From NCBI RefSeq assembly GCF_900198365.1, contig NZ_FZMS01000009.1, positions 62,001-126,000 of the forward strand: 64,000 nucleotides of DNA. Reading direction: 5' to 3'. Within the stretch, counting starts at the first letter, position 1. Each line of letters starts with the position of its first letter. This stretch comes from Helicobacter bilis (lineage in GTDB: Bacteria > Campylobacterota > Campylobacteria > Campylobacterales > Helicobacteraceae). The notes under the pieces are model-generated. The model had not been told where the DNA came from, did not search any database, and worked only from the letters and a program-made list of their open reading frames with translations. Below are positions 4,908 through 43,791 of this stretch, one piece after another. The translations under genes and the position numbers were made by a program.

Positions 4908-5428
4908 ATGGCACAGCCAGCTTACATAAAGATTGAAGGTTCTACTCAAGGACTTATTTCAAGTGGTGCTTCCACACCAGAAAGTATAGGGAATCGTTAC
5001 CAATTAGGACACGAAGATGAAATTATGGCTCAAGAAGTCGCTCATATTGTAACCGTCCCAACAGACCCACAAAACAAAGCGGACAGCCAAGCGGACAAAG
5101 AGTGCATAAGCCATTTTCTTTTACTTGTTCATTAAATAAGGCTGTTCCACTCCTTTATAATGCTCTTACAAATGGAGAAAGATTGCCGATTGTGGAAGTT
5201 CATTGGTTTAGGACTTCTACAAGCGGAGGACAGGAGTATTACTTTACAACAAGATTAGAAGATGCCATCATTACAGATATTAATCTTGTAATGCCTAATG
5301 CGCAAGACCAAGACAATAACGACAAAACAGAACTTTTTAAAGTTTCTCTCAATTATAGAAAAGTGGTTTGGGAGCATATCGCTGCTGGAACAAGTGGGAG
5401 TGATGATTGGATAGAGACAAGGGTCTAG
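4908..5428 (+). pseudogene. hcp: Type VI secretion tube protein Hcp (TssD), frameshifted by a 5-bp duplication
   Basis: Hcp forms the hexameric tube expelled by the T6SS. The first frame (MAQPAYIKIEGSTQGLISSG, ..., GHEDEIMAQEVAHIVTVPTD) and the second (VHKPFSFTCSLNKAVPLLYN, ..., KVSLNYRKVVWEHIAAGTSG) are the two halves of a normal roughly 172-residue Hcp. The break is explained exactly by the tandem duplication ACAAA-ACAAA at 5069-5078. Deleting one copy restores DPQSGQPSGQRVHKPF, the expected family sequence. Start ATG 4908 has AAAGGA upstream. No other lesion is visible, so the gene is either recently inactivated, reversible by slippage, or carries a sequencing error. It heads the T6SS cargo cassette. 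Confidence 0.9.
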
Positions 5429-7117: not shown

Positions 7118-7481
7118 ATGAAAAAATTTATTTTACAATATTTGGTTATGAGTTATACACTCATATATGCTTCAGACCCCTTGGCTATAGCTAACGCAAT
7201 AACGAATAGAGAACAAACTTCTATCCTAGCTAAATGGGGATTGCAATATTGTTTGCAATATGATAAGGAAAATTTATTTAAACCCAATCAATATGGATTT
7301 TTGCGCGAAGATGTTGCTTTGGGCAAATTAGATTTACAAAAATATTTTGATGATAAATCTTTTTTTTAAAGAGCCTATGAATACTTATCGTTTTGATAGG
7401 TGCTTGAGCTTATATTGGTCAGAAGAGTATCGACTTAAAGTATATCACATAGTCAAAAAATACTGCGAGATATGTGAGTGA
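7118..7481 (+). pseudogene. Tai4-like periplasmic immunity protein, frameshifted at a T8 run
   Basis: Starts MKKFILQYLVMSYTLIYAS, a signal peptide, with GAGGAG upstream. This is followed by a Cys-containing helical protein (WGLQYCLQYDKE). The frame ends at 7369 inside T8 (7360-7367). With seven Ts it continues through KEPMNTYRFDRCLSLYWSEE to a TGA at 7479-7481, about 120 residues. The restored C-terminus matches the family pattern F-x-x-CLxxYxSxE of Tai4 immunity proteins. These sit in the periplasm and block the cognate Tae4 amidase. It follows the effector gene by 9 bases, as in other effector-immunity pairs. Family assignment is from motif recall and context. Confidence 0.7.
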
Positions 7482-8692
7482 AGTACTGCGAAATAATTAT
7501 TTACAAAACAATCAAGTTGCTAGCAATGTTAGCAATATTGTGAGTAGCAATAACAATGGCACAAATCAAACAAACACCGATCAAGAACATACTATTACAA
7601 TAATCAACCAAACACAACAAAATAAAGATAACACCAACACAAATGCTATACAAACGTATTCTAGCAATAACAAAAGATACTCTTATACTCCATTCCTTAA
7701 AGTAGCCTATCCTATTGCAAGTGCAAGTTCTAAATTCTACCATACACCAAGAGCTGGATATGAAGTTATAATATTTTTCTTAAATAATGATATAGATAAG
7801 CCCTATATCAGTGGTAGTCTCTATAATAAAAGTAATTCTGTCTCGCCTTCTTTGCCCTTAGCTTCTCATCAAACAAGTTTAAGTGCAAGAACTCTTAATA
7901 GCTTACAAAGCAATACAAAGGAAGCAGAGACTACACACTCTCATTACAATCCATTAGAATCTAGATTAAACGAAATAACTCTCTCCAACATAAAAGACAA
8001 TGAAGAAATCTATGTAAGAGCAGAGAAAGACTATAATGAATATATAAAGCATAACTTCTCTCAAAGGATACAAAATAATAAAGATTTTCTAGTTTTAGGA
8101 AGCTATACAGAATCTATTACTAAATATCATAAACAAGAAATACTAGGTTTAAAAGATGTCCGAGTTGGTGCAGAATACCTTACAAATGTAGTTTTATCTA
8201 AAGATACAATAATAGGACTTATCTCATACCTTAAATGTAGATGTAGATAATACGCTAAGAGTAGGAAAAAATTCTAGCGAATCTATTGGAGGGGATAAGA
8301 GTGTGGAGGTGGTGGGGAGTTTTACAGAATCTATACAGGGGGATTCTAGCAAGAATATAAAAGAAAATAGGAGTGAGGTTGTGGAGAACATTAAGTGTCC
8401 ATAGTAATCAGAATCCACATGTGAGTGCCAATGATGAGTTAGCCCTCATCTCACAAAACAATCACTTGGTTTAAGGAGTGATGAGAATTTTACTATCAAT
8501 ACTAAAGACTTATTTGCCACAAGTAAGCAGGATATGAGCTATAATGCTAGCAATAGTATTATGCTCTGTGTTGGGGATTCTTCAAGTATTGAGATACATA
8601 GAAATTCTATAAGACTTAAGATAAAATACAATGAACTGATCTTAGATGAAAGCAGATTGCATATCAATACAAAAAATGGAAATAAAAAATGA
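7474..8692 (+). pseudogene. vgrG: VgrG spike protein, C-terminal half only, several frameshifts
   Basis: The gp5-like OB-fold and beta-helix parts are recognisable: KVAYPIASASSKFYHTPRAG, DIDKPYISGSLYN, EITLSNIKDNEEIYVRAEKD and NFTINTKDLFATSKQDMSYN. The N-terminal gp27-like half is absent; homology begins right where the immunity gene ends, as if a deletion joined the two. A one-base change near 8217-8220 moves the frame from GLISYLK to SHTLNVDVDNTLRVG, and further shifts occur near 8395 and 8470. The last frame ends with TGA overlapping the ATG of the next gene (ATGA at 8689-8692), a preserved translational coupling. No functional spike can be made from this copy. Confidence 0.85.
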
Positions 8693-21234: not shown

Positions 21235-21337
21235 AACTCAATACTTTTTACTAAAAGCAAAACTTGAAAATATATGAAAATAACCTGGCGTATAAAATGT
21301 AAATTTTTGTGAATCTTAATCTTGCAAAGCTTAGTAT

Positions 21338-21368
21338 ATCTAAAAAGAGTTTTTATCTCTTTAGATAC
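21338..21368. repeat. Hairpin between ruvC and the convergent small-peptide locus
   Basis: TATCTAAAAAGAG and CTCTTTAGATA form an imperfect stem around a short AT loop. It could terminate transcription from either side, since ruvC and the peptide cluster converge here. Confidence 0.35.
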
Positions 21369-21417
21369 AAAGCAAGTAGCTATAATCTCGTGTTATAATG
21401 AAATGATTCTAAAGTGA

Positions 21418-21686
21418 TTATTCAAGCACAAGCATTTCTTTATCACCAAAACTTTGCTCTAAATCAGAATCTAGCGTTTTTACAATATAAGCTTTTGTAT
21501 TAGGTGTAGTTATAATCTTTTTTTCTTTTGAGTTAAATAGCGTGAGAATAACCCTTATATTACCATCATTCATTTTATTACGCATGGCAATGGCTAATAA
21601 AACCGCATCGTTTATATTAGTGTTTAAAAATGTGAAATTAAACCTTATAAATGCTATGAAATTGTAGCAAGTGAAGTATCTAGCAT
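21418..21686 (-). pseudogene. Unknown small protein downstream of the peptide array, apparently frameshifted
   Basis: A short ATG frame (MLDTSLATIS, stop) is followed one frame over by a long coding-like stretch: FNFTFLNTNINDAVLLAIAM, RNKMNDGNIRVILTLFNSKE, IITTPNTKAYIVKTLDSDLE, ending GDKEMLVLE. The longer frame has no start codon before an internal ATG, and a TAG precedes it. Either one base is lost near 21655 or the gene starts at a rare codon. Family unknown. Its position, directly after the peptides and the poly-C tract, makes it a candidate accessory or immunity gene, but this is conjecture. Confidence 0.45.
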
Positions 21687-21710
21687 TCTAGCTTTATTTC
21701 ACATATAAAT

Positions 21711-21723
21711 GGGGGGGGGGGGG
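21711..21723. repeat. 13-base homopolymer (G13 on plus, C13 on minus)
   Basis: On the minus strand it comes one base after the TAA of the 46-residue peptide and about 25 bases before the next ATG. Such tracts change length by slippage. Here it lies in the transcript between two genes and could change mRNA structure rather than a frame. Confidence 0.8.
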
Positions 21724-21724
21724 A

Positions 21725-21865
21725 TTATTTTCCACCCGTGATAGTTCTCCAGCAAAGCCCAGCAGCACCAAGTATTATGGCACCAGCTATTGAGTATTCT
21801 ACCACTGGATTATCCGTTTCAAATGGTCCCCAAGGACCCTCGCCTTTTGTCAAACCAACTACCAT
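21725..21865 (-). CDS. Small hydrophobic peptide E (46 aa)
   Basis: Fifth of the array. AAGGAG lies six bases before the ATG. The product begins MVVGLTKGEGPWGPFETDN, followed by one hydrophobic helix (YSIAGAIILGAAGLCW) and RTITGGK. Unlike the others it has a longer polar Gly/Pro-rich head and a Cys/Trp pair at the end of the helix. Topology suggests a single-span membrane peptide. No family recognised. Ends directly before the 13-base C tract. Confidence 0.65.
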   Translation of the reverse strand: MVVGLTKGEGPWGPFETDNPVVEYSIAGAIILGAAGLCWRTITGGK

Positions 21866-21969
21866 AATATTCTCCTTACTTAAAAATCAATCATAATGCA
21901 AACAATAATATTGAACTCATTTGCATACCTAAAACCCTAAACCTTTAGCTTTGCTATATAAAGATACTT

Positions 21970-22065
21970 TTATTTAAGCACTTTTTTAGTAACACTTCGA
22001 GCAGCCGCTCCTGCCACAGCACCAGCTACCATAGGAAGTGCCGCTACCAAAAATGGTAATGGCAT
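21970..22065 (-). CDS. Small hydrophobic peptide D (31 aa)
   Basis: AAGGAG, five bases, ATG. Begins MPLPFLVAALPMVAGAV and ends with the basic RSVTKKVLK. Ala/Val/Gly-rich with a cationic tail, like peptides A and B; the start M(A/P)LP is shared by A-D. There is no cleavable leader or double-Gly motif, so if secreted it would be leaderless. Function unknown. Confidence 0.7.
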   Translation of the reverse strand: MPLPFLVAALPMVAGAVAGAAARSVTKKVLK

Positions 22066-22101
22066 GTTTTCTCCTTATATCACTATTAATAAACTTATTG
22101 C

Positions 22102-22188
22102 TTAATCCAAAATAGAATCTATTGCAGATGCTGCTGCTTTACTTACAACCATTGAAATGGCTGCTGCAGCTAACATTGGTAATGCCAT
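22102..22188 (-). CDS. Small hydrophobic peptide C (28 aa)
   Basis: AAAGGATAGATT precedes the ATG. Begins MALPMLAAAAISMVVSKA and ends SAIDSILD, so unlike its sisters the tail is acidic. The shared MALP start, the own ribosome site and the regular spacing to the neighbours argue for real translation in spite of its size. Confidence 0.7.
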   Translation of the reverse strand: MALPMLAAAAISMVVSKAAASAIDSILD

Positions 22189-22235
22189 AATCTATCCTTT
22201 CATATTCAAATATAAACGATTTCTACTAAGAAACA

Positions 22236-22316
22236 CTATTTTTTCAATAATGCTTCAACGCCAATCTGTGCCACTTTACTTGCAATTATTCCTGCAACTA
22301 TTACTGGTAACGCCAT
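22236..22316 (-). CDS. Small hydrophobic peptide B (26 aa)
   Basis: AAAAGGAGATGTT before the ATG. Begins MALPVIVAGIIASKVAQIG and ends EALLKK. Hydrophobic residues and a few polar ones alternate as in an amphipathic helix. Same length and layout as peptide A. Confidence 0.7.
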   Translation of the reverse strand: MALPVIVAGIIASKVAQIGVEALLKK

Positions 22317-22346
22317 AACATCTCCTTTTTATGTTAAAAGATAAAT

Positions 22347-22427
22347 CTATCGACCTTTTTTTATCATTATGTCAATTCCAATCTTTATCGTTGTAGCAGC
22401 CGCAGCAGCTAATAATGGTAATGCCAT
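22347..22427 (-). CDS. Small hydrophobic peptide A (26 aa)
   Basis: First of the array in the direction of transcription, 48 bases after the stop of the YkgJ fragment. GAAAGGATAAATT precedes the ATG. Begins MALPLLAAAAATTIKIG and ends DIMIKKGR. The five peptides share start motif, ribosome site type and size but differ in sequence, which points to an old duplicated family under selection rather than chance ORFs. Confidence 0.7.
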   Translation of the reverse strand: MALPLLAAAAATTIKIGIDIMIKKGR

Positions 22428-22475
22428 AATTTATCCTTTCTTAAACACAACTGAGTAAAAAATAAATCAAAATTT

Positions 22476-22691
22476 CTACAATCTTAACTCATCTCTTACC
22501 AACTCTTTTTCCTGCAAAGCCCTACAAGCTTCTACATTTAGCCTGTAAAACTCTTCCTTACTATAATGCTTGAAATACACTTTTTCAAACATTATATCCA
22601 CCCTGCAAATACTAGGACGAGAATCATAAATACTGCACATATTATTAGAATCTAAACTCATAGTTAAAGAGAAGTCGGGGTTTGTTGCCAT
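22476..22691 (-). CDS. YkgJ-family cysteine cluster protein, N-terminally truncated
   Basis: NMCSIYDSRPSICRVD, then FYRLNVEACRALQ, is the C-terminal half of YkgJ/UPF0153 zinc- or iron-binding proteins. The N-terminal CxxCxxCC part is missing: the frame starts inside the end of the outer-membrane protein gene, overlapping it by 47 bases, with no good ribosome site. It is therefore probably a remnant, though a short functional form translated by coupling cannot be excluded. Confidence 0.6.
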   Translation of the reverse strand: MATNPDFSLTMSLDSNNMCSIYDSRPSICRVDIMFEKVYFKHYSKEEFYRLNVEACRALQEKELVRDELRL

Positions 22692-23418
22692 AGATTTTTG
22701 AGTGCCTTATGCTAAGTTCGAGTGCATTATAGCGGTTTAATAGGAATGTTAGCCCATAACCAAATGCCATGCCTTTATCTGCATAGATGACTTCTTCCTT
22801 TGAGCTTGGGAGAAAATCATTGCCAACAGAGAGCATTTCATAGCCAATATTTATATGTGGTAAGACATATTTGTATCCCGCATGGATTTGGAAAAATGCC
22901 CCACCACTGCGGAATGCCATCGTATTTTCACCAAGAGATTTTACGCCGACTTCATAGGATAGCTGTATTTTATAGCCCATATTTACACCTAACATATAAT
23001 ATTGCTGTTGAAAGCCTACGCCAATCATAAATGTCGGGATAGTAGATTCTGTAATTGTGCTATTTTTTTGTGCTATTTTTTCTGTATTAGCTGCACCCAT
23101 GCCAACTTGTGCATGAAAATAGGGCAATATATAAAGATCATGATTAAATACTTCTGTTTTTCTATCATCTTCTGGTATGCCTATTAAGCCATTTGCTTCT
23201 GTAACTTTTTCTTGTGAGTTTTTAAGCCCTTTTTCAGTATCCTTTGCATATATAGATGAAAAAGTGCTTAAGAGTAACATGAAGAGTAGGGCAAGTATTT
23301 GAGAGATTTTATTCAAGATTCTATAAAAAGCATTTGAAAAAGCATTTAACTGAAAGCAATAGCCTTTATGGAATCTTAGATGATTAAAAGGTTGTGTAAA
23401 GAAAGATGATAGCTTCAT
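22645..23418 (-). CDS. Outer-membrane beta-barrel protein
   Basis: 257 residues. A long N-terminal region of about 60 residues holds the hydrophobic signal segment ILALLFMLLLSTFSSIYAK. The mature part has alternating amphipathic strands with aromatic girdles (YYMLGVNMGYKIQLSYEVGV, FFQIHAGYKYVLPHINIGYE) and ends in YEFRF with the terminal Phe needed for BAM insertion. The ATG overlaps the stop of the response regulator, with GAGGAG upstream, so it is co-translated with the two-component system. Ligand unknown; a Helicobacter small OMP is the best description. Confidence 0.7.
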   Translation of the reverse strand: MKLSSFFTQPFNHLRFHKGYCFQLNAFSNAFYRILNKISQILALLFMLLLSTFSSIYAKDTEKGLKNSQEKVTEANGLIGIPEDDRKTEVFNHDLYILPYFHAQVGMGAANTEKIAQKNSTITESTIPTFMIGVGFQQQYYMLGVNMGYKIQLSYEVGVKSLGENTMAFRSGGAFFQIHAGYKYVLPHINIGYEMLSVGNDFLPSSKEEVIYADKGMAFGYGLTFLLNRYNALELSIRHSKIYGNKPRLLFNYEFRF

Positions 23419-24125
23419 ATTTGCTCCTCATCGTAATTAGATTCTAATATGGTTGTATGTGTAAAATCTTCTATATGTCCTAGTTTATAGGCTTTGTTTC
23501 GAATCTTTTGTAGCAAACCTTTTTGAGTTAAATCTTTAAAGCATTGCGCCACAGTTTGTCGTGTCGTATTTAAATGTTCAGCAATCTCATCATGTGTGCC
23601 ATAAAAGATTTGTTCATTATCACAATGTGTGAAGAGATACTGCACGATTTCTACCTTTTTACCACCAAAAAGTGTATTTAAGGCTAGAAGTAATTGATTT
23701 TGCATTTCAATAATTTTATTTTGTGCAAAGGGCAATACCGCATTATGCAGTGTGTCTGTCAGCTCATCTATCTTTATAGGTTTTAATAAATAGCCATTGC
23801 AACCAAGCTTAATCGCCTCAAGAAAGTAATGCGTCTCTGTCAAAGCACTAATAAGCACAATAGGTATATCTTTCTTTGCATTGTAGCGAATCTGTCGCAT
23901 AAGCTTTATGCCATCAAAGCGTGGCATGACAATATCTGTCAAAACAATATCAATATGATTTGCCTGAAATATCTCCCATGCTTCTAACCCATCTTTTGCA
24001 ACCATAACATTGCCAAAATAATCCTCCAATATTGAAGCAAGTGTTTGCCTTGCTGTATAGTCATCTTCTGCATAAAGGATTGTGAGCTGTTTTAGAATCT
24101 CAATCTCTTTTAATCTCTCGTTCAT
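23415..24125 (-). CDS. Response regulator with Crp-type winged-helix output
   Basis: Receiver domain: LYAEDDYTARQTL (acidic pair), DIVLTDIVMPRFDGIKLM (phospho-acceptor Asp) and LLKPI (Lys). The C-terminal HDEIAEHLNTTRQTVAQCFK is a Crp/Fnr-like helix-turn-helix, an uncommon output for this receiver type. I use ATG 24125 (GGGAGAAGTCGGCG upstream); a longer GTG frame begins at 24152. It overlaps the kinase gene by about 26 bases and the OMP gene by 4, so the three form one translational unit. Confidence 0.85.
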   Translation of the reverse strand: MNERLKEIEILKQLTILYAEDDYTARQTLASILEDYFGNVMVAKDGLEAWEIFQANHIDIVLTDIVMPRFDGIKLMRQIRYNAKKDIPIVLISALTETHYFLEAIKLGCNGYLLKPIKIDELTDTLHNAVLPFAQNKIIEMQNQLLLALNTLFGGKKVEIVQYLFTHCDNEQIFYGTHDEIAEHLNTTRQTVAQCFKDLTQKGLLQKIRNKAYKLGHIEDFTHTTILESNYDEEQI

Positions 24126-25680
24126 CGCCGACTTCTCCCTCCATCGTGTCACTAAGCTGCAATTCTAGCACAAATAATGCCCCTTTACAATAATCCCCAT
24201 CGCAATTAAAGGTAATGTTTCTTGCGTATATATTGCCTTGTAAATATTTTGTTAGCATTTCTTTTGCCATATAGAGTCCTATGCCTGTTCCCATCTTTTT
24301 TGTTGTAACATAAATATCAAAGATTCTATCAATAATATGTGGATTAATCCCACCCGCATTATCATATATATCTAAATGCAGGATAGAATCTTTTTTCTCA
24401 AGTGCGATAAAGCAATGCGGATTTTTTATCTTTCTTTCAGTAAATACATCTTTTATATTGCCAAGTAGCACAAGCACAATCTGCATAAACGCATGTTTAT
24501 TACCAAAGATTCTATATTCTTCTTGTGTGTCATATTCGATATGAATCTGTATGTTTAAGGCTTGTAATAATGGCTCATAAATAATGACTACTTCATGAAT
24601 TGCATCTTTTATGTCAAAGTTTTCAAAACTATTGTCTAAGCGGAAGAAATTGTGAAAAATATCAATGGTATTACTCATATTATCTGCGAGTGCTAGAGAG
24701 GTTGTTATATGCTTATTTAATATCTCTTTTGTAAGAGAGTTTTTATTAAATTTTTGTTGTATATCTTGCATGACTAAGCCTAGTGAATTGAGCGGATTTC
24801 TCCATTGATGTGCGATGTTTTGCACCATTTCTCCCATTGCTGCAAGTTTTGATTGTGCGTATATGGCTATATCTTTTTTGCGTATATCTTCGACTTTTTT
24901 TGCGATTTCATTTTGCAAATGTGCGTTTAATTTGCGTAAATCTGCCGTTGCATTATTAAACTGCTCTTCTAAATACTGATTTAATCGGCGGATAAAACCA
25001 ATCACAACAATATAAATACATACAACAATAATAAATACAAGCAGCGTTATCATACACAATAGCCCTATCGTTGCGTTATGAAAATGATCTGTTACCTCTT
25101 TTTCAAGTGTATGCAGGGCAACTTGTGTATTAATGATATTTGCACTAATGCTATTTACCTTTTTTGCATGTTCGTATAAGAGATCTCTATCTGCTTTTAG
25201 GATATTTGCTGCCTCAAGGGTAATGGTTTTTTCTACTTCTTCCACTAATTGTTGCTTTTTCTTTTGATATGCTAGAATCATTTCATTTTGTTTTGTTAAA
25301 AAAGTAGTTTTATAAATATGTCTTAAAAAGCTAAACACACCCCTTTGCTCACTCAAAGATTGTGAGAGATTTTTATAAAGACTCCATTGATAAAAGCTTG
25401 TAGCATAGGTTTTAGTCCCTTTTGGATTATCTTGTAGTATATCAATTGTTTCAAGCATATATTGACTTTGAAAGTCATTTAATAGGCTTAATTCACTTAG
25501 TGGTTCTGGCACACTCCCATCAAAATCATCTTTTAACCCCTTAATCGATAAATATGCGACAAGAAATAATGTAAAAAGCCCGACAGAAAAAACAAAGGGC
25601 AGAAACTTCGCATAAAAGGTAAAGCCCAAACGGCTATTACCCATACTATTTGCTATACCAAATTGATTATGACTTTGCAT
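24100..25680 (-). CDS. Sensor histidine kinase
   Basis: 526 residues. Membrane segments at about 25-48 (FLPFVFSVGLFTLFLVAYLS) and 205-230 (LLCMITLLVFIIVVCIYIVV) enclose a helical periplasmic sensor of about 150 residues. A coiled coil leads to the H box IAHQWRNPLNSLGLVMQD (phosphorylated His), followed by the ATPase motifs (NAGGINPHIIDRIFDIYVTT, KMGTGIGLYMAKEM). It is the partner of the overlapping response regulator. The signal is unknown. Divergent from pepF. Confidence 0.88.
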   Translation of the reverse strand: MQSHNQFGIANSMGNSRLGFTFYAKFLPFVFSVGLFTLFLVAYLSIKGLKDDFDGSVPEPLSELSLLNDFQSQYMLETIDILQDNPKGTKTYATSFYQWSLYKNLSQSLSEQRGVFSFLRHIYKTTFLTKQNEMILAYQKKKQQLVEEVEKTITLEAANILKADRDLLYEHAKKVNSISANIINTQVALHTLEKEVTDHFHNATIGLLCMITLLVFIIVVCIYIVVIGFIRRLNQYLEEQFNNATADLRKLNAHLQNEIAKKVEDIRKKDIAIYAQSKLAAMGEMVQNIAHQWRNPLNSLGLVMQDIQQKFNKNSLTKEILNKHITTSLALADNMSNTIDIFHNFFRLDNSFENFDIKDAIHEVVIIYEPLLQALNIQIHIEYDTQEEYRIFGNKHAFMQIVLVLLGNIKDVFTERKIKNPHCFIALEKKDSILHLDIYDNAGGINPHIIDRIFDIYVTTKKMGTGIGLYMAKEMLTKYLQGNIYARNITFNCDGDYCKGALFVLELQLSDTMEGEVGDEREIKRD

Positions 25681-28923: not shown

Positions 28924-31020
28924 ATGAAAAATGAATTATTGCAAGATTTAGAAAATCGCTTTGAAACTTTAAATCATATTAGAAATTTAGCACAAAGCTA
29001 TGATGAAAAATTGTTTTGTTATCTTTTAGACCAAAGCACATACAAAGATGAGTTTAAGAATAGATTCTTTATTATGCGAAATAACACTTATATTTTTAAG
29101 CTTAATGACTTTTTAACCTTTTTAGACCTTAGAAATTTAAGCGGTAGCTTCACAAGTTATACAAATAAAATAGGACTAGGATTTAAAACAAAAAGCTTTT
29201 TAAAAACAAACAATGAAGTCGTGCTAAATTTTGCTTACAAAGATGGCGTTCTAAAAGGCGGACAAAGTAAAGATGAGAAGCAAAAGACTAAAGAGATATT
29301 TTTCAATGAGATTTTAGCAAAAGATGAAATAGATGTGCTATTTGCAAGAAAAGCTTTACAAAACTTTGAACTCATAGGGCATTCAGCTTGTGGCGACTTT
29401 TCGGGGAATGCGGCGGACGCTTCATTGCGGCGTATGTCTAATACGCCTCATTCGCTTACCTTGCATAACCCCAAAAATTCACTCACAATCTTAGAATGCC
29501 AAGATTCTAAGCAAGATTCTAGCACGCAAAACGAGAGAGACAACGATAAGCTTAAAAATAGCTTAAAAGCAGGGGCTAATCTCTTAATCAAAGGCAATAA
29601 CCTTTTAGCCTTGCACTCTTTAAAAAAGAAGTTTGCAAATAAAATAAAACTTATTTATATTGACCCGCCGTATAATACAGGCAATGATAGCTTTAATTAT
29701 AATGACAACTTTAACCACTCTACTTGGCTTACCTTTATGAAAAATCGCCTTGAGATTGCAAGGGAATTTTTAAGAGATGATGGCGTGATATTTATACAAT
29801 GTGATGACAACGAACAGGCATATTTAAAAGTGCTAATGGATGAGATTTTTGGGAGAGATAATTTTGTAGGGTGTTGCCCTGTTATCGTAAATCGTGGCGG
29901 TAGGGATTATGGGGGAATAGCAAAAACACACGATTATCTTTTAATCTATGGAAAAACATTATTGACAGAGCTTTATCAAATTGAAGATAAAGACAAAAAG
30001 TTTCAATTTAGCGATGAAAATGGTGGATTTAATTTAATGGAATTGAGAAACAGAAATATACGATTTAATAAGGAAAATCGCCCTAACTTGTATTATCCAT
30101 TCTATATAAATCCAAATAATGCCGATGAAAATGAATTACTTGAAATTTCACTAGAATCAAAAAATAATTTTATAGAGTTGTATCCTCTTAAATCGCAAGA
30201 TATTGATACCGTGTGGCGTTGGGGAAAAGAAAAAGCAGAAAAATTTTTAAATACCCAAATAAAAGGCAAGAGAAAACAAGATGGCGGATTTATGATAGTT
30301 CAAAAAAATAGGTTATCTCTAAAAAGGCAAAGAAGTATTTGGGATAATAGGGAATTTGTAAATGAAAGGGGAACAGAACACATTAAGCAAATGTTGGGTA
30401 GAGATTCTTTTTCATATCCAAAAAGCGAATTTTTACTTCAAAGAATTATAGAAATATCTACAAATGAAAACGATTTAGTAATGGACTTTTTCGCAGGAAG
30501 TGGAACGACTCTAGCAGTAGCTATGAAAATGAAAAGGCAATTTATAGGGATTGAACAAATGGAGTATATAGAATCTATCACAAAAGAGCGACTTAAAAAA
30601 GTGATAAATGGGGAGCAAGGGGGGATTAGCAAAGCGGTAGATTGGCAAGGAGGCGGAAGCTTTATCTATGCAGAGCTTATGCCTTTAAATGCAATATATA
30701 AAGAGAGAATAAAAAATATAAATGATGAAAAAATGCTAGATTCTATTTACAAAGATTTAGAATCTAAAGCTTTTTTGGATTATCGTATAGATTTAGATAG
30801 TATTTTAAAAGATAAAGAGTTTAAAGAATTAGATTTAAAAAATAAAAAAGAAGTTTTACTAAACATTTTAGATTCTAATATGGACTATGTGCTGTATGGG
30901 GATATAGAAGATGAGGATTATGCAATAAGCGATGAAACAATAGAGCTAAATAGAATCTTTTATGGGGATTGCCACGATTTTGCTAACGCAAAATCTCGCA
31001 ATGACAAAAAAGGAAAATAA
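28924..31020 (+). CDS. mod: Type III restriction-modification system, Mod DNA methyltransferase
   Basis: 698 residues. Motif IV LIYIDPPYNTGND and motif I VMDFFAGSGTTLAVAM in the beta-class order, with a variable central region (about 300-500) that recognises DNA. It methylates adenine and directs Res. GGAGAATGT precedes the ATG. The stop overlaps the res start (TAATG). A GC-rich stretch (29385-29475) adds an in-frame insertion (SGNAADASLRRMSNTPHSLT) ahead of the catalytic domain. No repeat tract for phase variation was seen. Confidence 0.92.
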   Translation: MKNELLQDLENRFETLNHIRNLAQSYDEKLFCYLLDQSTYKDEFKNRFFIMRNNTYIFKLNDFLTFLDLRNLSGSFTSYTNKIGLGFKTKSFLKTNNEVVLNFAYKDGVLKGGQSKDEKQKTKEIFFNEILAKDEIDVLFARKALQNFELIGHSACGDFSGNAADASLRRMSNTPHSLTLHNPKNSLTILECQDSKQDSSTQNERDNDKLKNSLKAGANLLIKGNNLLALHSLKKKFANKIKLIYIDPPYNTGNDSFNYNDNFNHSTWLTFMKNRLEIAREFLRDDGVIFIQCDDNEQAYLKVLMDEIFGRDNFVGCCPVIVNRGGRDYGGIAKTHDYLLIYGKTLLTELYQIEDKDKKFQFSDENGGFNLMELRNRNIRFNKENRPNLYYPFYINPNNADENELLEISLESKNNFIELYPLKSQDIDTVWRWGKEKAEKFLNTQIKGKRKQDGGFMIVQKNRLSLKRQRSIWDNREFVNERGTEHIKQMLGRDSFSYPKSEFLLQRIIEISTNENDLVMDFFAGSGTTLAVAMKMKRQFIGIEQMEYIESITKERLKKVINGEQGGISKAVDWQGGGSFIYAELMPLNAIYKERIKNINDEKMLDSIYKDLESKAFLDYRIDLDSILKDKEFKELDLKNKKEVLLNILDSNMDYVLYGDIEDEDYAISDETIELNRIFYGDCHDFANAKSRNDKKGK
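29385..29475 (+). repeat. GC-rich palindromic insertion inside mod
   Basis: Much richer in G+C than the gene around it. Contains a perfect stem GGCGTAT-GTCTA-ATACGCC (29429-29447) and imperfect outer arms GGGAATGCGG / CCTCATTCGC (29404-29413 / 29446-29455). It remains in frame with mod. Looks like a mobile palindromic element tolerated within a linker. Confidence 0.6.
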
Positions 31021-33560
31021 TGTTTAATAAAAAGTTATATGAGACCTTACTAGAAGAGTTTGGAAAAAGAGGGTTGGAAGATATAGAGATACCTTTTTAT
31101 ATCAAAGAAAATTTATCCAAAGAGTTAAGAATCTACCAAGAAAAAGCACTGAAATATTATTATGCTAACATAGATTCTATAAAACAAAATCATTTAATGT
31201 TTAATATGGCAACAGGCAGTGGGAAAACGCTGATAATGGCGGCTTTAATACTTGACTGCTATAAAAGGGGATATAGAGATTTTATTTTCTTTGTAAATAC
31301 TAATTCTATATTGGAAAAAACTAAGGCGAATTTTGCTGATAAATATTCAAGTAAATACCTTTTTAAAGAGAGTATCAATATAGATTCTGAAAATGTAGAG
31401 ATTAATATTATTAATAATCTAAGTGAAAGTAAAGATGAATGTATCAATATACATTTTACGACTATACAGGCTCTATACTCTTTGTTTAAAAATGAAAAGG
31501 AAAATTCTTTAAGCTTTAGTGATTTAGTGGATAAAAAGATTGTGTTATTAGCTGATGAAGCACATCATTTAAATAGTGATACTAAAAGTAAAAGTGAAAA
31601 GGAAAATAAAGAGGGTTGGGAGACAATCATAACAAAGGCTTATGAAAGCAATAAAGAAAATTTATTATTTGAATTTAGTGCTACGATACCACAAGAGGCT
31701 AATGTTTTAGAAAAATATACAAATAAAATAATTTATGAATATGCTTTAAAAGAGTTTTGCAAAGACGGCTATTCTAAACGGATATTTCTAACAAAATATA
31801 ACAATGAAACTTTAGAGTATAGAATCTTAGGAAGTATGCTAACAAGCCTTTATAGAGAGCTACTCGCACAAAAGCATAATATAATACTAAAACCTGTAAT
31901 AATGTATAAAAGTGAATCTATAAATGAATCAAAGCAAAATGAAAAGTTTTTTATAAATTTTTTAGAAAATTTAGAAACTTCTCAAATAAGTAGCTTTTAT
32001 GAAAGTATTAACAAAGAGAGTGAGCTTTTACATAAAAGCTTAGAATTTTTTAAAAGAGAATATGGCTTGTCGTATGCAAATAGCATTATCAACTTTTTAA
32101 AGAATAATTTTAAATCATTGTATATATTAAATACAAATGATGAAAAAGAGCTTGAAAAAAATCAAGTATTATTAAATACTTTGGAGGATACAAGCAATGA
32201 AATAAGAGTGATTTTTTCAGTAGATAAACTCAATGAGGGTTGGGATGTGCTAAACCTTTTTGATATAGTTAGACTTGGGGGTAGTAAAGTTAGCAAAGCT
32301 ATTACGACTAAGGAAGTGCAACTCATAGGAAGAGGTGCTAGATATTATCCCTTTAAAGACCACTCATTTGAGCTTGATAGTGATTCTATTTATGTAAGAA
32401 AATATGATAACGACTTAGATAATGAGCTAAACGCATTAGAGAGACTAAGTTATCATACCATTAATGATGTTGCATTTATTGAAAATCTTAATGAAAGTAT
32501 GAATAAGCAAGGCTTGCTATTTGAAGAAGAAAAAAAGCGTGTAGATTTAATTGTCAATGAAAAGATAAAGCCTATTATTAATAATAACAAAATTTATTAT
32601 GCCAATAATAAAAGGATTAGAAGAGGGGATTTAACACTTCCTTTTACACCATTTGAAATAAAGCAGAAAATAAAAGGACTACAAATTCCACTTTTTTCAA
32701 ACTCCATAAAAGAAAGTGAAGAGAAATTTGAGATTGTGAAAGAAGAATATGATTTACAAAACTCTTCAACACTTGAATTTATAGATACTAAATATTTTCT
32801 TAAAGCAATGAATATGTTAGGGCTTAGTTTTAAAGAAATTAATGAGAATCTTGACTTTAAAAGCAAAAGGGATTTTATAGAAAATTATTTAAAAAAAATA
32901 TATGTATGCTTTTCAAAAAAACAAACATTTAATGTGGAAAATAAACTTGAAATAGCAAAGTATGTTTTGGAAAATTTTAAATCCTTAAAGCAAAGTATCA
33001 AGCAAGAATATGAAGTAAGTGAGTTTCAGTCTCATAAATTTAATATAAGCGATAGAATAATCTTTAAAAATGATGATAATTTTGAAGATTCTCAATTTGC
33101 TTGGCTATATCATAAGACATTTTGTTATGATAGTAAGCTAGAAAGAGAATTTTTGGAATTTATAGAGAGCAGAAAAAATGATATTGATAAGATGTTTTCT
33201 CAATGGTTTATTATAAGAAATGAGGGATTTAAAGAATTTAAAATTTATGATAATCGCGTAAATGAAGTAACTTATGGAATGGGCTTTGAGCCTGATTTTA
33301 TTTTCTTTGGTAAAAGAAAAGATGAAGAGGATAACAAATTTTTAAGCATTCAATGTTTTATGGAAACAAAGGGTGAGCATTTAGCTCCTAAAGATAGTTG
33401 GAAAGAGGATTTTCTAGCAATGCTAAAGGGCAAAAAGATTAACACAGATACAAATCAAATATTGACATTAGAATCTTTACCATTTTTTATAAATAAAGAT
33501 ATAAGCAAAAATCAAACATTTATTGATGAATTTGATGGGTTTTTAAATAAGCAGAAATAA
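31020..33560 (+). CDS. res: Type III restriction enzyme, Res helicase-endonuclease subunit
   Basis: 846 residues. SF2 helicase: MATGSGKTLIMAAL (Walker A, residue about 65), LLADEAHHLNSD (DEAH box), FEFSATIP (motif III), and QLIGRGARYYPF (motif VI). C-terminal nuclease PD-(D/E)xK: GFEPDFIFFGK...CFMETKGEHL. It translocates on DNA and cleaves with Mod when two unmethylated sites face each other. It starts inside the mod stop codon. Appears complete. Confidence 0.93.
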   Translation: MFNKKLYETLLEEFGKRGLEDIEIPFYIKENLSKELRIYQEKALKYYYANIDSIKQNHLMFNMATGSGKTLIMAALILDCYKRGYRDFIFFVNTNSILEKTKANFADKYSSKYLFKESINIDSENVEINIINNLSESKDECINIHFTTIQALYSLFKNEKENSLSFSDLVDKKIVLLADEAHHLNSDTKSKSEKENKEGWETIITKAYESNKENLLFEFSATIPQEANVLEKYTNKIIYEYALKEFCKDGYSKRIFLTKYNNETLEYRILGSMLTSLYRELLAQKHNIILKPVIMYKSESINESKQNEKFFINFLENLETSQISSFYESINKESELLHKSLEFFKREYGLSYANSIINFLKNNFKSLYILNTNDEKELEKNQVLLNTLEDTSNEIRVIFSVDKLNEGWDVLNLFDIVRLGGSKVSKAITTKEVQLIGRGARYYPFKDHSFELDSDSIYVRKYDNDLDNELNALERLSYHTINDVAFIENLNESMNKQGLLFEEEKKRVDLIVNEKIKPIINNNKIYYANNKRIRRGDLTLPFTPFEIKQKIKGLQIPLFSNSIKESEEKFEIVKEEYDLQNSSTLEFIDTKYFLKAMNMLGLSFKEINENLDFKSKRDFIENYLKKIYVCFSKKQTFNVENKLEIAKYVLENFKSLKQSIKQEYEVSEFQSHKFNISDRIIFKNDDNFEDSQFAWLYHKTFCYDSKLEREFLEFIESRKNDIDKMFSQWFIIRNEGFKEFKIYDNRVNEVTYGMGFEPDFIFFGKRKDEEDNKFLSIQCFMETKGEHLAPKDSWKEDFLAMLKGKKINTDTNQILTLESLPFFINKDISKNQTFIDEFDGFLNKQK

Positions 33561-34348: not shown

Positions 34349-35443
34349 GTGCCTACACTTTATATCGCTGAATATCAAAGCTTTGGAGTAGAAGATATAC
34401 AAAAGACTTTAGAATATTGTAAGACAAAAGATTCTAAGCAAAAAGCACAAAAGATTTTTAATGAGCTAAAAGACTTTGCTAGTGATGAAAAGCACAACCA
34501 TTTGTAGAAATTTTTGTGCGTATGTTTTTGAATGAATGTGAAAAACTCATCAAAGCTGGACTAAAAAGCGATTATCTTTGTATGACACAAAATAGGGTAT
34601 TCCTTAAAGGTAAATTAGAGCTTAAAGAACATATCACACAAAATCTTATCCATAAAGAGAGATTTTTCACAAGTAGTGATGAATACACACAAGACATAAC
34701 CCCAAACCGCCTGATACAATCAACACTTCATATTCTATCACGCTTAAGCCTTAGCCCTAGCACACAAACAAAGCTAGATTCTATGCGATTTATCTTTGCT
34801 GATATTAGCTCGAGTGAGAATATAGAATCTGACTTTATAAAATGTAATAATATGGGTAGGGCTAAAGAATATAAAATGATTATATTGTGGTGCAAGGTAT
34901 TTTTAGGACAAAAAGCTTTTAGCCCTTATGTTGGAAGCGATAAGGCGATCGCATTTTTATTCCCGATGGAAAAACTTTTTGAATCTTTTGTGGGATTCTG
35001 GCTTAAAAAATGTGCTAAAGGCTTTGAAGTAAAAACACAAGAGAGTAGAAAATATCTACTACAAGATGAGAATAAAAACAATATATTTTGCTTAAAGCCT
35101 GATATTATAATGCGTAGTAAGGATAGAATTATCACTGTAGATACAAAGTGGAAAATCCCAGATTCTAACTCTAGTGAGAAAAAATATGGAATCTCACAAA
35201 GCGATCTCTATCAAATGTGGGCGTATGCGAGTAAGTATCGCTTAGAATCTAAAAAAGTTAGTGCAGTGCTTATCTATCCACAATGTGAAAGAACAAAAGA
35301 CATAGAAGAGTTATGGAAAAATAAAAAATGCAGAATCCAGTAAAGATTCTATAAAGCTAGATTCTAATCAAAATAAAGATGCTATGCCAGAATCTAGCAT
35401 TTCTATATCCCTTGCCTTTGCTCCATTATGCATGATGGATTAG
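34349..35443 (+). pseudogene. mcrC: McrC-type nuclease subunit, frameshifted twice
   Basis: A GTG frame starts VPTLYIAEYQSFGVEDIQKT and breaks near 34497. The main frame from 34516 (RMFLNECEKLIKAGLKSDYL) carries the PD-(D/E)xK nuclease core LKPDIIMRSKDRIITVDTKW and YQMWAYASKY. A second one-base slip in the A-run near 35330 hides the natural C-terminus (ESSKDSIKLDSNQ...LCMMD), which ends at 35443. Partner of the mcrB remnant. Because the active-site core is undamaged, a shortened product might persist, but without McrB it would be idle. Confidence 0.8.
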
Positions 35444-42384: not shown

Positions 42385-43791
42385 TCACTTATACCACTTA
42401 GGGAGCTTTTCCATACCAGAATCTTTAAACATATCTATTTTGCTTTTAGCATTTATCTCCCAGTAATCTAAGTCTTGATTAAAGCTTGTAGCACTCTCGA
42501 ACATTCTATCCATATATCTTACATTGTGCATACGCCAGAATCTTAACTCTTGATTAAAAGAAGTTGCATTTCTAAACATTTCGCTAGTATTCCACACATC
42601 AGCAAGATTCCATTTATTTAAGGGCTGATTAAACTCTTTTGCATTTTTAAACATAGCACTCATGCTTGTTACATGGCTTACATTCCATGTGTTTAGGCTT
42701 TGATTAAATTTCAATGCCCCTTCAAACATAGATCGCATTTCACGCACTTTTGACACATTCCAAGATTCTAAAGGTTGGTTAAACTCTTTTGCATTTTTAA
42801 ACATAGCAAACATACTTTCCACTCTACCTACATTCCAAGAATTTAGGGGTTGATTAAAGCTTATTGCATTTTCAAACATATTTTCCATATATTTTACTTT
42901 ACTTACATTCCAAGCGTTAATATTTTGATTAAAAGAAGTAGCAAAAGCAAACATGGCATTCATATTGATGACATTTGCCACATTAAGAGATTCTAAAGCG
43001 CCATTAAAAGACTTTGCACCAAAAAACATCTCACGCATACTTTCGACATTTCTTGTGTCCCATTTATTTAGACTTTGGTTAAAACTTTCTGCTTCAAAAA
43101 ACATGGCATTCATATAACGCACATTCGCCACATTCCAAGATTCTAAAGACTGATTAAAAGCTTTAGCTCTTGCAAACATGTTATTCATGCTTTCAACTTT
43201 AGCTACATTCCATCGTGAAATATCTTGATTAAACTGCATGGCATCAGCAAACATAAAGTCCATATTTGTAACATTTGCTACATTCCATTTAGAAATATCA
43301 TGGTTGAAATACTTTGCATGATCAAACATTGCATACATATTGGTAACATTTTTGACATTCCAAGATTCTATACCGCTAAAATCTCTCCGCATCGAGTTTT
43401 TAAATAACGCACTCATGTCTGTAACCGCACTTGTATCAATGTCGCCTAGCTTTATGGTATTATTATCCACAAGGGCTTTTAGCTCGTTTTTTGTCTGCGG
43501 TGCGTGAAGTTTTTTTGTAGTTTTTGGTTTTGTAGCTTTTTGTTTAGAAACTAGCTTTTCTTCTGTGTCTTTTAGATTAGATTCTAGGCTTGTATCTTGT
43601 GTTTTTGTGTCTTGTTTTTTATCTTTATTTACATTGCTTTTAGAATCTTCTGTGTTTGGGTCAGCTTTAGAATCTTTTTCTGTTTTACTCGTAGTTTCTT
43701 TAGAATCTTTAGAATCCGGTGTTGTATTTTTCACACAACCTAGCATTACAATATGACAAAAAAATAAAGTGGCAATAAAGATAAAACGCAT
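42385..43791 (-). CDS. BspA-type (DUF285) repeat lipoprotein
   Basis: 468 residues. The lipoprotein signal MRFIFIATLFFCHIVMLGC carries the lipobox Cys at 19. A Lys/Asp/Ser/Thr-rich linker (20-95) is followed by about 13 repeats of 25 residues of the pattern M-x-x-MF-x-x-A-x-x-FNQ-x-L-x-x-WNV-x-x-V (about 125-455). Such leucine-rich-like surface proteins mediate adhesion in other bacteria. AAAGGAATAGTT precedes the ATG. Repeats differ at many positions, so recent expansion is unlikely. Confidence 0.85.
   Translation of the reverse strand: MRFIFIATLFFCHIVMLGCVKNTTPDSKDSKETTSKTEKDSKADPNTEDSKSNVNKDKKQDTKTQDTSLESNLKDTEEKLVSKQKATKPKTTKKLHAPQTKNELKALVDNNTIKLGDIDTSAVTDMSALFKNSMRRDFSGIESWNVKNVTNMYAMFDHAKYFNHDISKWNVANVTNMDFMFADAMQFNQDISRWNVAKVESMNNMFARAKAFNQSLESWNVANVRYMNAMFFEAESFNQSLNKWDTRNVESMREMFFGAKSFNGALESLNVANVINMNAMFAFATSFNQNINAWNVSKVKYMENMFENAISFNQPLNSWNVGRVESMFAMFKNAKEFNQPLESWNVSKVREMRSMFEGALKFNQSLNTWNVSHVTSMSAMFKNAKEFNQPLNKWNLADVWNTSEMFRNATSFNQELRFWRMHNVRYMDRMFESATSFNQDLDYWEINAKSKIDMFKDSGMEKLPKWYK

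Follow-up and report, generated by a model that had tools for sequence, protein, structure and literature searches.

Four tiny Helicobacter genes best read as stand-alone versions of a membrane-anchoring N-terminus, and the AAA+ ATPase cassette found around them in relatives

A 64,000-nucleotide stretch of Helicobacter bilis DNA, referred to here as the window, was analysed. Five minus-strand ORFs starting with ATG lie at 21725-22427, with the positions and sizes given by the first-pass annotation of the same DNA. These are P1 (22347-22427, 26 aa, MALPLLAAAAATTIKIGIDIMIKKGR), P2 (22236-22316, 26 aa, MALPVIVAGIIASKVAQIGVEALLKK), P3 (22102-22188, 28 aa, MALPMLAAAAISMVVSKAAASAIDSILD), P4 (21970-22065, 31 aa, MPLPFLVAALPMVAGAVAGAAARSVTKKVLK) and P5 (21725-21865, 46 aa). 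AAGGA or AAGGAG stands just 5' of the ATG of each ORF (AAGGA for P1 and P3, AAGGAG for P2 and P4), so that the good Shine-Dalgarno (SD) sites and the four M(A/P)LP starts claimed in that annotation were confirmed. It had also described one array of five tiny hydrophobic peptide genes; P1-P4 are related and P5 is of a different kind, so that the array is better described as four plus one. In P1-P4 a hydrophobic stretch comes after the SD-led M(A/P)LP start, and all four have in common a repeat of 45 nt that surrounds the start codon. Their GRAVY values are 1.0-1.4 and their net charges are +3, +2, -1 and +4. Basic C-termini are present in three of the four (KKGR, LLKK and KKVLK), while P3 ends in SILD. 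P5 lacks the start motif and has no kinship to P1-P4; its C-terminal half is conserved and transmembrane-like and its N-terminal half is variable.

Both strands of the window were scanned with the start pattern AGGA-N3-9-ATG-(G/C)CN-(C/T)TN-CCN. The minus strand gave four matches, all of them in the array, and the plus strand gave none. First-order Markov shuffles gave 0.025 matches per strand, with no pair 400 bp or less apart, and on this comparison chance ORFs were ruled out. A reversed control pattern matched once across 14 genomes of the genus. Directly 3' of the P5 stop lies a poly-C tract (21711-21723, minus strand) with 13 C in the window and 13-15 in the relatives. The tract is found behind the P5 stop in all four known arrays (window, L006 and L007) and its length varies; it is a possible phase-variable repeat, by which the downstream genes would be phase-varied.

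Several other genes of the window were recorded. A response regulator with a Crp-like helix-turn-helix and a histidine kinase (23415-25680) lie next to the array locus. Type III restriction-modification genes (mod and res) and a McrC-like gene (28924-33560 and 34516-35340) are located 6-13 kb from the array. An Hcp-like type VI secretion protein and a VgrG/gp5-like protein are encoded at 5102-5425 and 7474-8247, and the gene at 42385-43788 encodes a protein made almost entirely of DUF285 repeats, a family named from Mycoplasma.

The conservation of the array was analysed in related genomes. A 100% identical P1 peptide was found in G002 and G013, which belong to the same genus, and the full P1-P5 array occurs in the same order once in G002 and twice in G013, with all five frames intact. 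The tiny array itself is thereby known from three genomes only (the window strain, G002 and G013), in four arrays; a tblastn match in G034 (L004) lies opposite a chemoreceptor-type gene and was rejected as chance. The P1 protein is 100% identical in the G002 array and in both G013 arrays, the P2 peptide is likewise identical with one third-position change in its gene, P3 is conserved with three residue changes, and P4 is conserved, beginning MALPLL in the relatives. P5 is 91% identical in G002 and in one G013 copy; in the other G013 copy its N-terminus is replaced, with an in-frame length change that is the sole length change inside any gene. Frame-breaking indels occur between the genes only. 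The five genes (162 codons) of the window and G002 differ by 7, 2 and 11 substitutions at codon positions 1, 2 and 3, a statistic that is thin as the substitutions are few, and the intergenic regions differ by 16-18 changes plus small indels. The five small genes are very probably real, since the changes are biased to third positions and the indels fall between genes. Both the intact frames in related strains and the favoured third positions, the latter from a small number of changes, are in accordance with the earlier claim of small protein genes. As a separate observation, the two G013 arrays (L003 and L006) have exchanged N-terminal halves of P5, as if P5 were a variable component. Weak and uninformative matches only were obtained for P4 and P5 in Pfam and NCBIfam and for P1, P2, P4 and P5 in PHROGs, and the literature searches returned no description of the array or of the cassette that surrounds it.

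The locus in the window is a broken copy. A remnant of a CxxCxxCC (PF03692) gene lies at 22476-22691 on the minus strand and consists of the C-terminal part only (A2 profile positions 40-99; partial Pfam match, E=3e-4). Its N-terminus is replaced by the end of an outer-membrane-like protein gene, and the same junction is present in one G013 array. This outer-membrane-like gene (22645-23418, minus strand) flanks the array, overlaps the remnant with its 3' end and stands outside the cassette. A second remnant (21418-21600, minus strand) derives from p3, the last tail protein of the cassette; it covers residues 65-124 with the tail FGDKEMLVLE and is 93% identical to a p3 of H. bilis (L017, E=3e-39). 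A matching first part of a CxxCxxCC gene was located on the same contig at a distance of about 75 kb, where it follows a TerB-like gene; this placement suggests that a rearrangement took place within the CxxCxxCC gene. No intact CxxCxxCC gene was found in this genome; truncated pieces were seen at G000:C87:9888-10013, G000:C4:3391-3519 and G000:C69:10577-10723. It also gave no match to the cassette ATPase at E<=1e-40 and no PDC-M09A gene at E<=1e-8. Judged from the sequence, the window array is an orphan yet intact, because the ATPase part of the cassette has been deleted there and most of the cassette has been lost. The first-pass statement that no modification enzyme lies nearby is correct for the window alone, owing to the broken copy: the whole CxxCxxCC gene stands beside the array in G002 and in one G013 array, and a remnant only is left in the window and in the other G013 array.

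The clearly rearranged locus and its two gene remnants raise the explanation that P1-P4 are themselves decaying fragments of the M(A/P)LP protein of 105 aa that persist by chance. This was rejected, and is considered very improbable, as the four are separate genes with their own ribosome sites and with intact frames in three genomes and four arrays. Moreover, the two G013 arrays do not differ in P1-P4, and P1 and P2 are identical in the window strain.

The cassette order in the relatives is TerB-like gene, CxxCxxCC (PF03692) gene, M(A/P)LP small protein(s), Vps4/IetA-like AAA+ ATPase and p1-p3. In G013 and G002 a TerB-like gene (weak PF05099 match) is followed by a CxxCxxCC gene (PF03692, above cut-off) and then by an array. 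Further on lie a second TerB/CxxCxxCC pair, a protein of 105-107 aa that starts MPLPFLAAIPALIAA, a 437 aa AAA+ ATPase and p1-p3. In the intact loci an M(A/P)LP protein of 64-107 aa is present alongside the array, the ATPase and the three tail proteins. The C-terminal tail FG(D/N)K(D/E/N)M(I/L)(V/I)(I/L)(K/E/Q) is common to p1, p2 and p3. The TerB/CxxCxxCC/MxLP/AAA/p1-p3 cassette was found in about ten Helicobacter genomes from several genera, with related cassettes in H. bilis, H. labacensis, H. salomonis, H. bizzozeronii, H. saguini, H. didelphidarum, H. brantae and a MAG, and a small MxLP gene lies directly upstream of the AAA gene in every cassette whose upstream side could be read. The distribution is sporadic and at different chromosomal places, and of the 399 genomes sampled from the order no more than 2 have the ATPase.

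The cassette ATPase scored best with the IetA and CdvC models, although far below the NCBIfam cut-offs (score 80 against a cut-off of 510 for IetA), and it also scored with CDC48-type structures. It resembles IetA of the ietAS system and the CdvC/Vps4-type AAA+ proteins. Unlike ietAS, the cassette has no gene for the subtilisin-like protease IetS among its ORFs, and its ATPase carries its own N-terminal domain and is accompanied by small tail proteins. On a Planktothrix agardhii plasmid (L061) a relative of the ATPase is preceded by five small proteins, several of them clearly p2-like and one p3-like, so that the ATPase/tail-protein half of the cassette extends beyond Helicobacter. A HerA-like ATPase lies downstream on the same plasmid, as in a wider undescribed system, and on the Moraxella osloensis and Comamonas plasmids (L058 and L059) the ATPase relatives are each followed by three small hypothetical proteins. 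The AAA alignment gave one weak match only among viral contigs, p3 had no match among plasmids, and p1-p3 gave weak, uninformative matches only in Pfam, NCBIfam, PHROGs and PADLOC. The AlphaFold models were poor (mean pLDDT of 62 for the 105 aa MxLP protein and 54 for p2).

These data also bear on the explanation that P1-P4 are non-toxic membrane partners or regulator subunits of an AAA+ machine, serving as its structural anchors or substrates and playing no part in defence; repair of membranes or quality control of proteins would be examples. The similarity of the ATPase to the CdvC/Vps4 and CDC48 types is consistent with it, and small proteins having a common C-terminal tail are as expected of ATPase substrates. 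Against this, the array is kept in the window though its genome lacks the AAA gene at the above threshold, and the cassette, like defence genes, is sporadic and varies in its chromosomal location. Such a housekeeping role is a rival to be taken seriously, with a modest probability.

The association of the start motif with CxxCxxCC genes was analysed for the 32 distinct CxxCxxCC genes in the loci examined. An SD-led M(A/P)LP ORF lies 140 bp or less downstream of 23 of them. Five more, which are the H. pylori-group loci, have an MPLP gene immediately upstream, and for three more an MxLP gene stands in the same operon. Across the Campylobacterales, the M(A/P)LP-start products encoded beside CxxCxxCC genes are otherwise unrelated and include a 205 aa GTPase-like protein, the 340 aa PDC-M09A type, the cassette proteins of 50-107 aa and the tiny peptides. 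In an operon setting like that of the array, the motif is found at the start of proteins of 50-380 aa. It is not exclusive to this setting, because another genus of the family has conserved YtxH-like proteins (L135-L138, 84-92 aa) that start with M(A/P)LPF and have no CxxCxxCC neighbour in the stretch seen.

The 340 aa glycine-rich MxLP proteins match the candidate defence protein PDC-M09A with E-values down to 1e-16. Among the PDC-M09A homologues of the order, a CxxCxxCC neighbour was present for 10 of 11 with an M(A/P)(L/V/I)P start and for 0 of 4 with other starts (Fisher p=0.004, with related H. pylori-group rows included that are not fully independent). Two homologues without an MxLP start (L128 and L129) have a TerB-like gene nearby and no CxxCxxCC gene. 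PDC-M09, a PADLOC candidate, thereby resembles the array in that its homologues of about 340 aa in Helicobacter and the Campylobacterales start M(A/P)(L/V/I)P followed by a hydrophobic stretch and adjoin CxxCxxCC genes and often TerB-like genes. The array differs in that its peptides of 26-31 aa hold the start only and lack the body of PDC-M09A, and further PDC-M09 genes were not identified; the two are linked only through the N-terminus and the neighbouring genes. The candidate system is only a sister of the array's cassette; PADLOC candidates are themselves unvalidated (PMC12988326), and the PDC-M09A-type protein had no match among plasmids. Taken with the conserved frames, the wider M(A/P)LP membrane-protein family bears out the earlier suggestion of a membrane-acting small-protein family. 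The most fitting reading of P1-P4 is that of a minimal version of an N-terminal membrane module, which consists of M(A/P)LP plus a hydrophobic helix.

The first-pass annotation had also proposed leaderless bacteriocins or PSM-like peptides, and this part of the proposal was not supported. A leaderless multi-peptide bacteriocin like aureocin A70 would leave the cell without a leader and kill competitors by forming pores. The array resembles aureocin A70 and garvicin KS in being a series of short leaderless hydrophobic peptides, four in tandem of 26-31 aa, three of them net cationic (+2 to +4). Leaderless bacteriocins are mostly highly cationic (review PMC6131525). Against this reading, P3 has a net charge of -1, neither the window locus nor the intact loci contained a transporter, export or immunity gene, array DNA had no match in plasmid DNA, P1 had none in phages by tblastn, and PHROGs gave no informative match. 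The bacteriocin explanation also leaves unexplained why the same start is found on the 50-380 aa proteins in the same operon setting; this common N-terminus indicates an intracellular membrane module and not a secreted toxin. The bacteriocin reading is accordingly very unlikely.

Type I toxins like AapA, which are toxic membrane peptides silenced by antisense RNAs, are known from Helicobacter (PMC8322730, PMC8309996), and their membrane-type peptides of about 30 aa with basic ends agree with P1-P4 in size, hydrophobicity and termini. However, no Rfam match at E<=1 was obtained in 21300-22800, and promoter-like sites on the plus strand were at chance level, so that no sign of an antisense RNA was seen. 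The start motif is different, all the genes have strong ribosome sites with operon-like spacing in a polycistronic setting, and the recurring CxxCxxCC/TerB link is foreign to type I modules. A toxin-antitoxin role is therefore improbable.

High confidence is placed in the anatomy of the system, namely the membership of P1-P4 in the family by motif and context, the conserved frames, the structure of the cassette and its decay in the window. The array probably encodes genuine small inner-membrane proteins, the genes being presumably translated and the location being suggested by composition, and the module of P1-P4 elsewhere starts larger proteins encoded beside TerB-like and CxxCxxCC genes. Ala or Pro at position 2 predicts removal of the initiator Met under the methionine aminopeptidase rule, and such removal would expose an (A/P)LP N-terminus on the module proteins. 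Owing to the tight conservation of this end and the CxxCxxCC partner, the CxxCxxCC and TerB partners may recognise it, modify it or help to insert it.

The analogy here is with FliB, the flagellin lysine methyltransferase, to whose motif the cysteine cluster of the partner (above the Pfam cut-off) is related. In FliB a similar cluster serves the transfer of a methyl group in a [4Fe-4S]-dependent reaction (PMC8598068); the partner differs in its length of about 97 aa, holding the cluster domain only, and it survives as a remnant in the window. The AAA+ ATPase would then remodel or trigger a membrane assembly of the array peptides, the MxLP protein and the tail proteins. This assembly would most likely be a phage- or stress-responsive effector, given the IetA-like ATPase, the link to PDC-M09A and a distribution that is sporadic and changes in chromosomal place. 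As a whole, the explanation that the array encodes real small inner-membrane proteins, that the module of P1-P4 is handled by CxxCxxCC/TerB and that they form a likely ATPase-linked phage or stress effector is given an even chance. The membrane-effector or defence role of P1-P4 and the cassette, taken for itself, is put forward tentatively. A more specific form, an ESCRT-like or pore-forming anti-phage membrane system in which CxxCxxCC/TerB modifies or inserts the M(A/P)LP proteins and the Vps4-like ATPase assembles or releases them through the tail proteins, is rather unlikely.

Genes of 26-31 codons are below the usual gene-calling limits, and the array would for this reason be missed in every genome that carries one. 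The rule that M(A/P)LP starts lie next to CxxCxxCC genes gives a simple search route to such small genes. The shared N-terminus joins a candidate defence protein, a GTPase-like protein, an AAA+ cassette and tiny peptides in one family, and it leads to the testable claim that the small CxxCxxCC proteins act on the (A/P)LP N-terminus. Four of the five small genes are best read as stand-alone versions of the membrane-anchoring N-terminal part of larger proteins, and the cassette with its M(A/P)LP proteins may be a previously undescribed membrane system with a possible role in phage defence.
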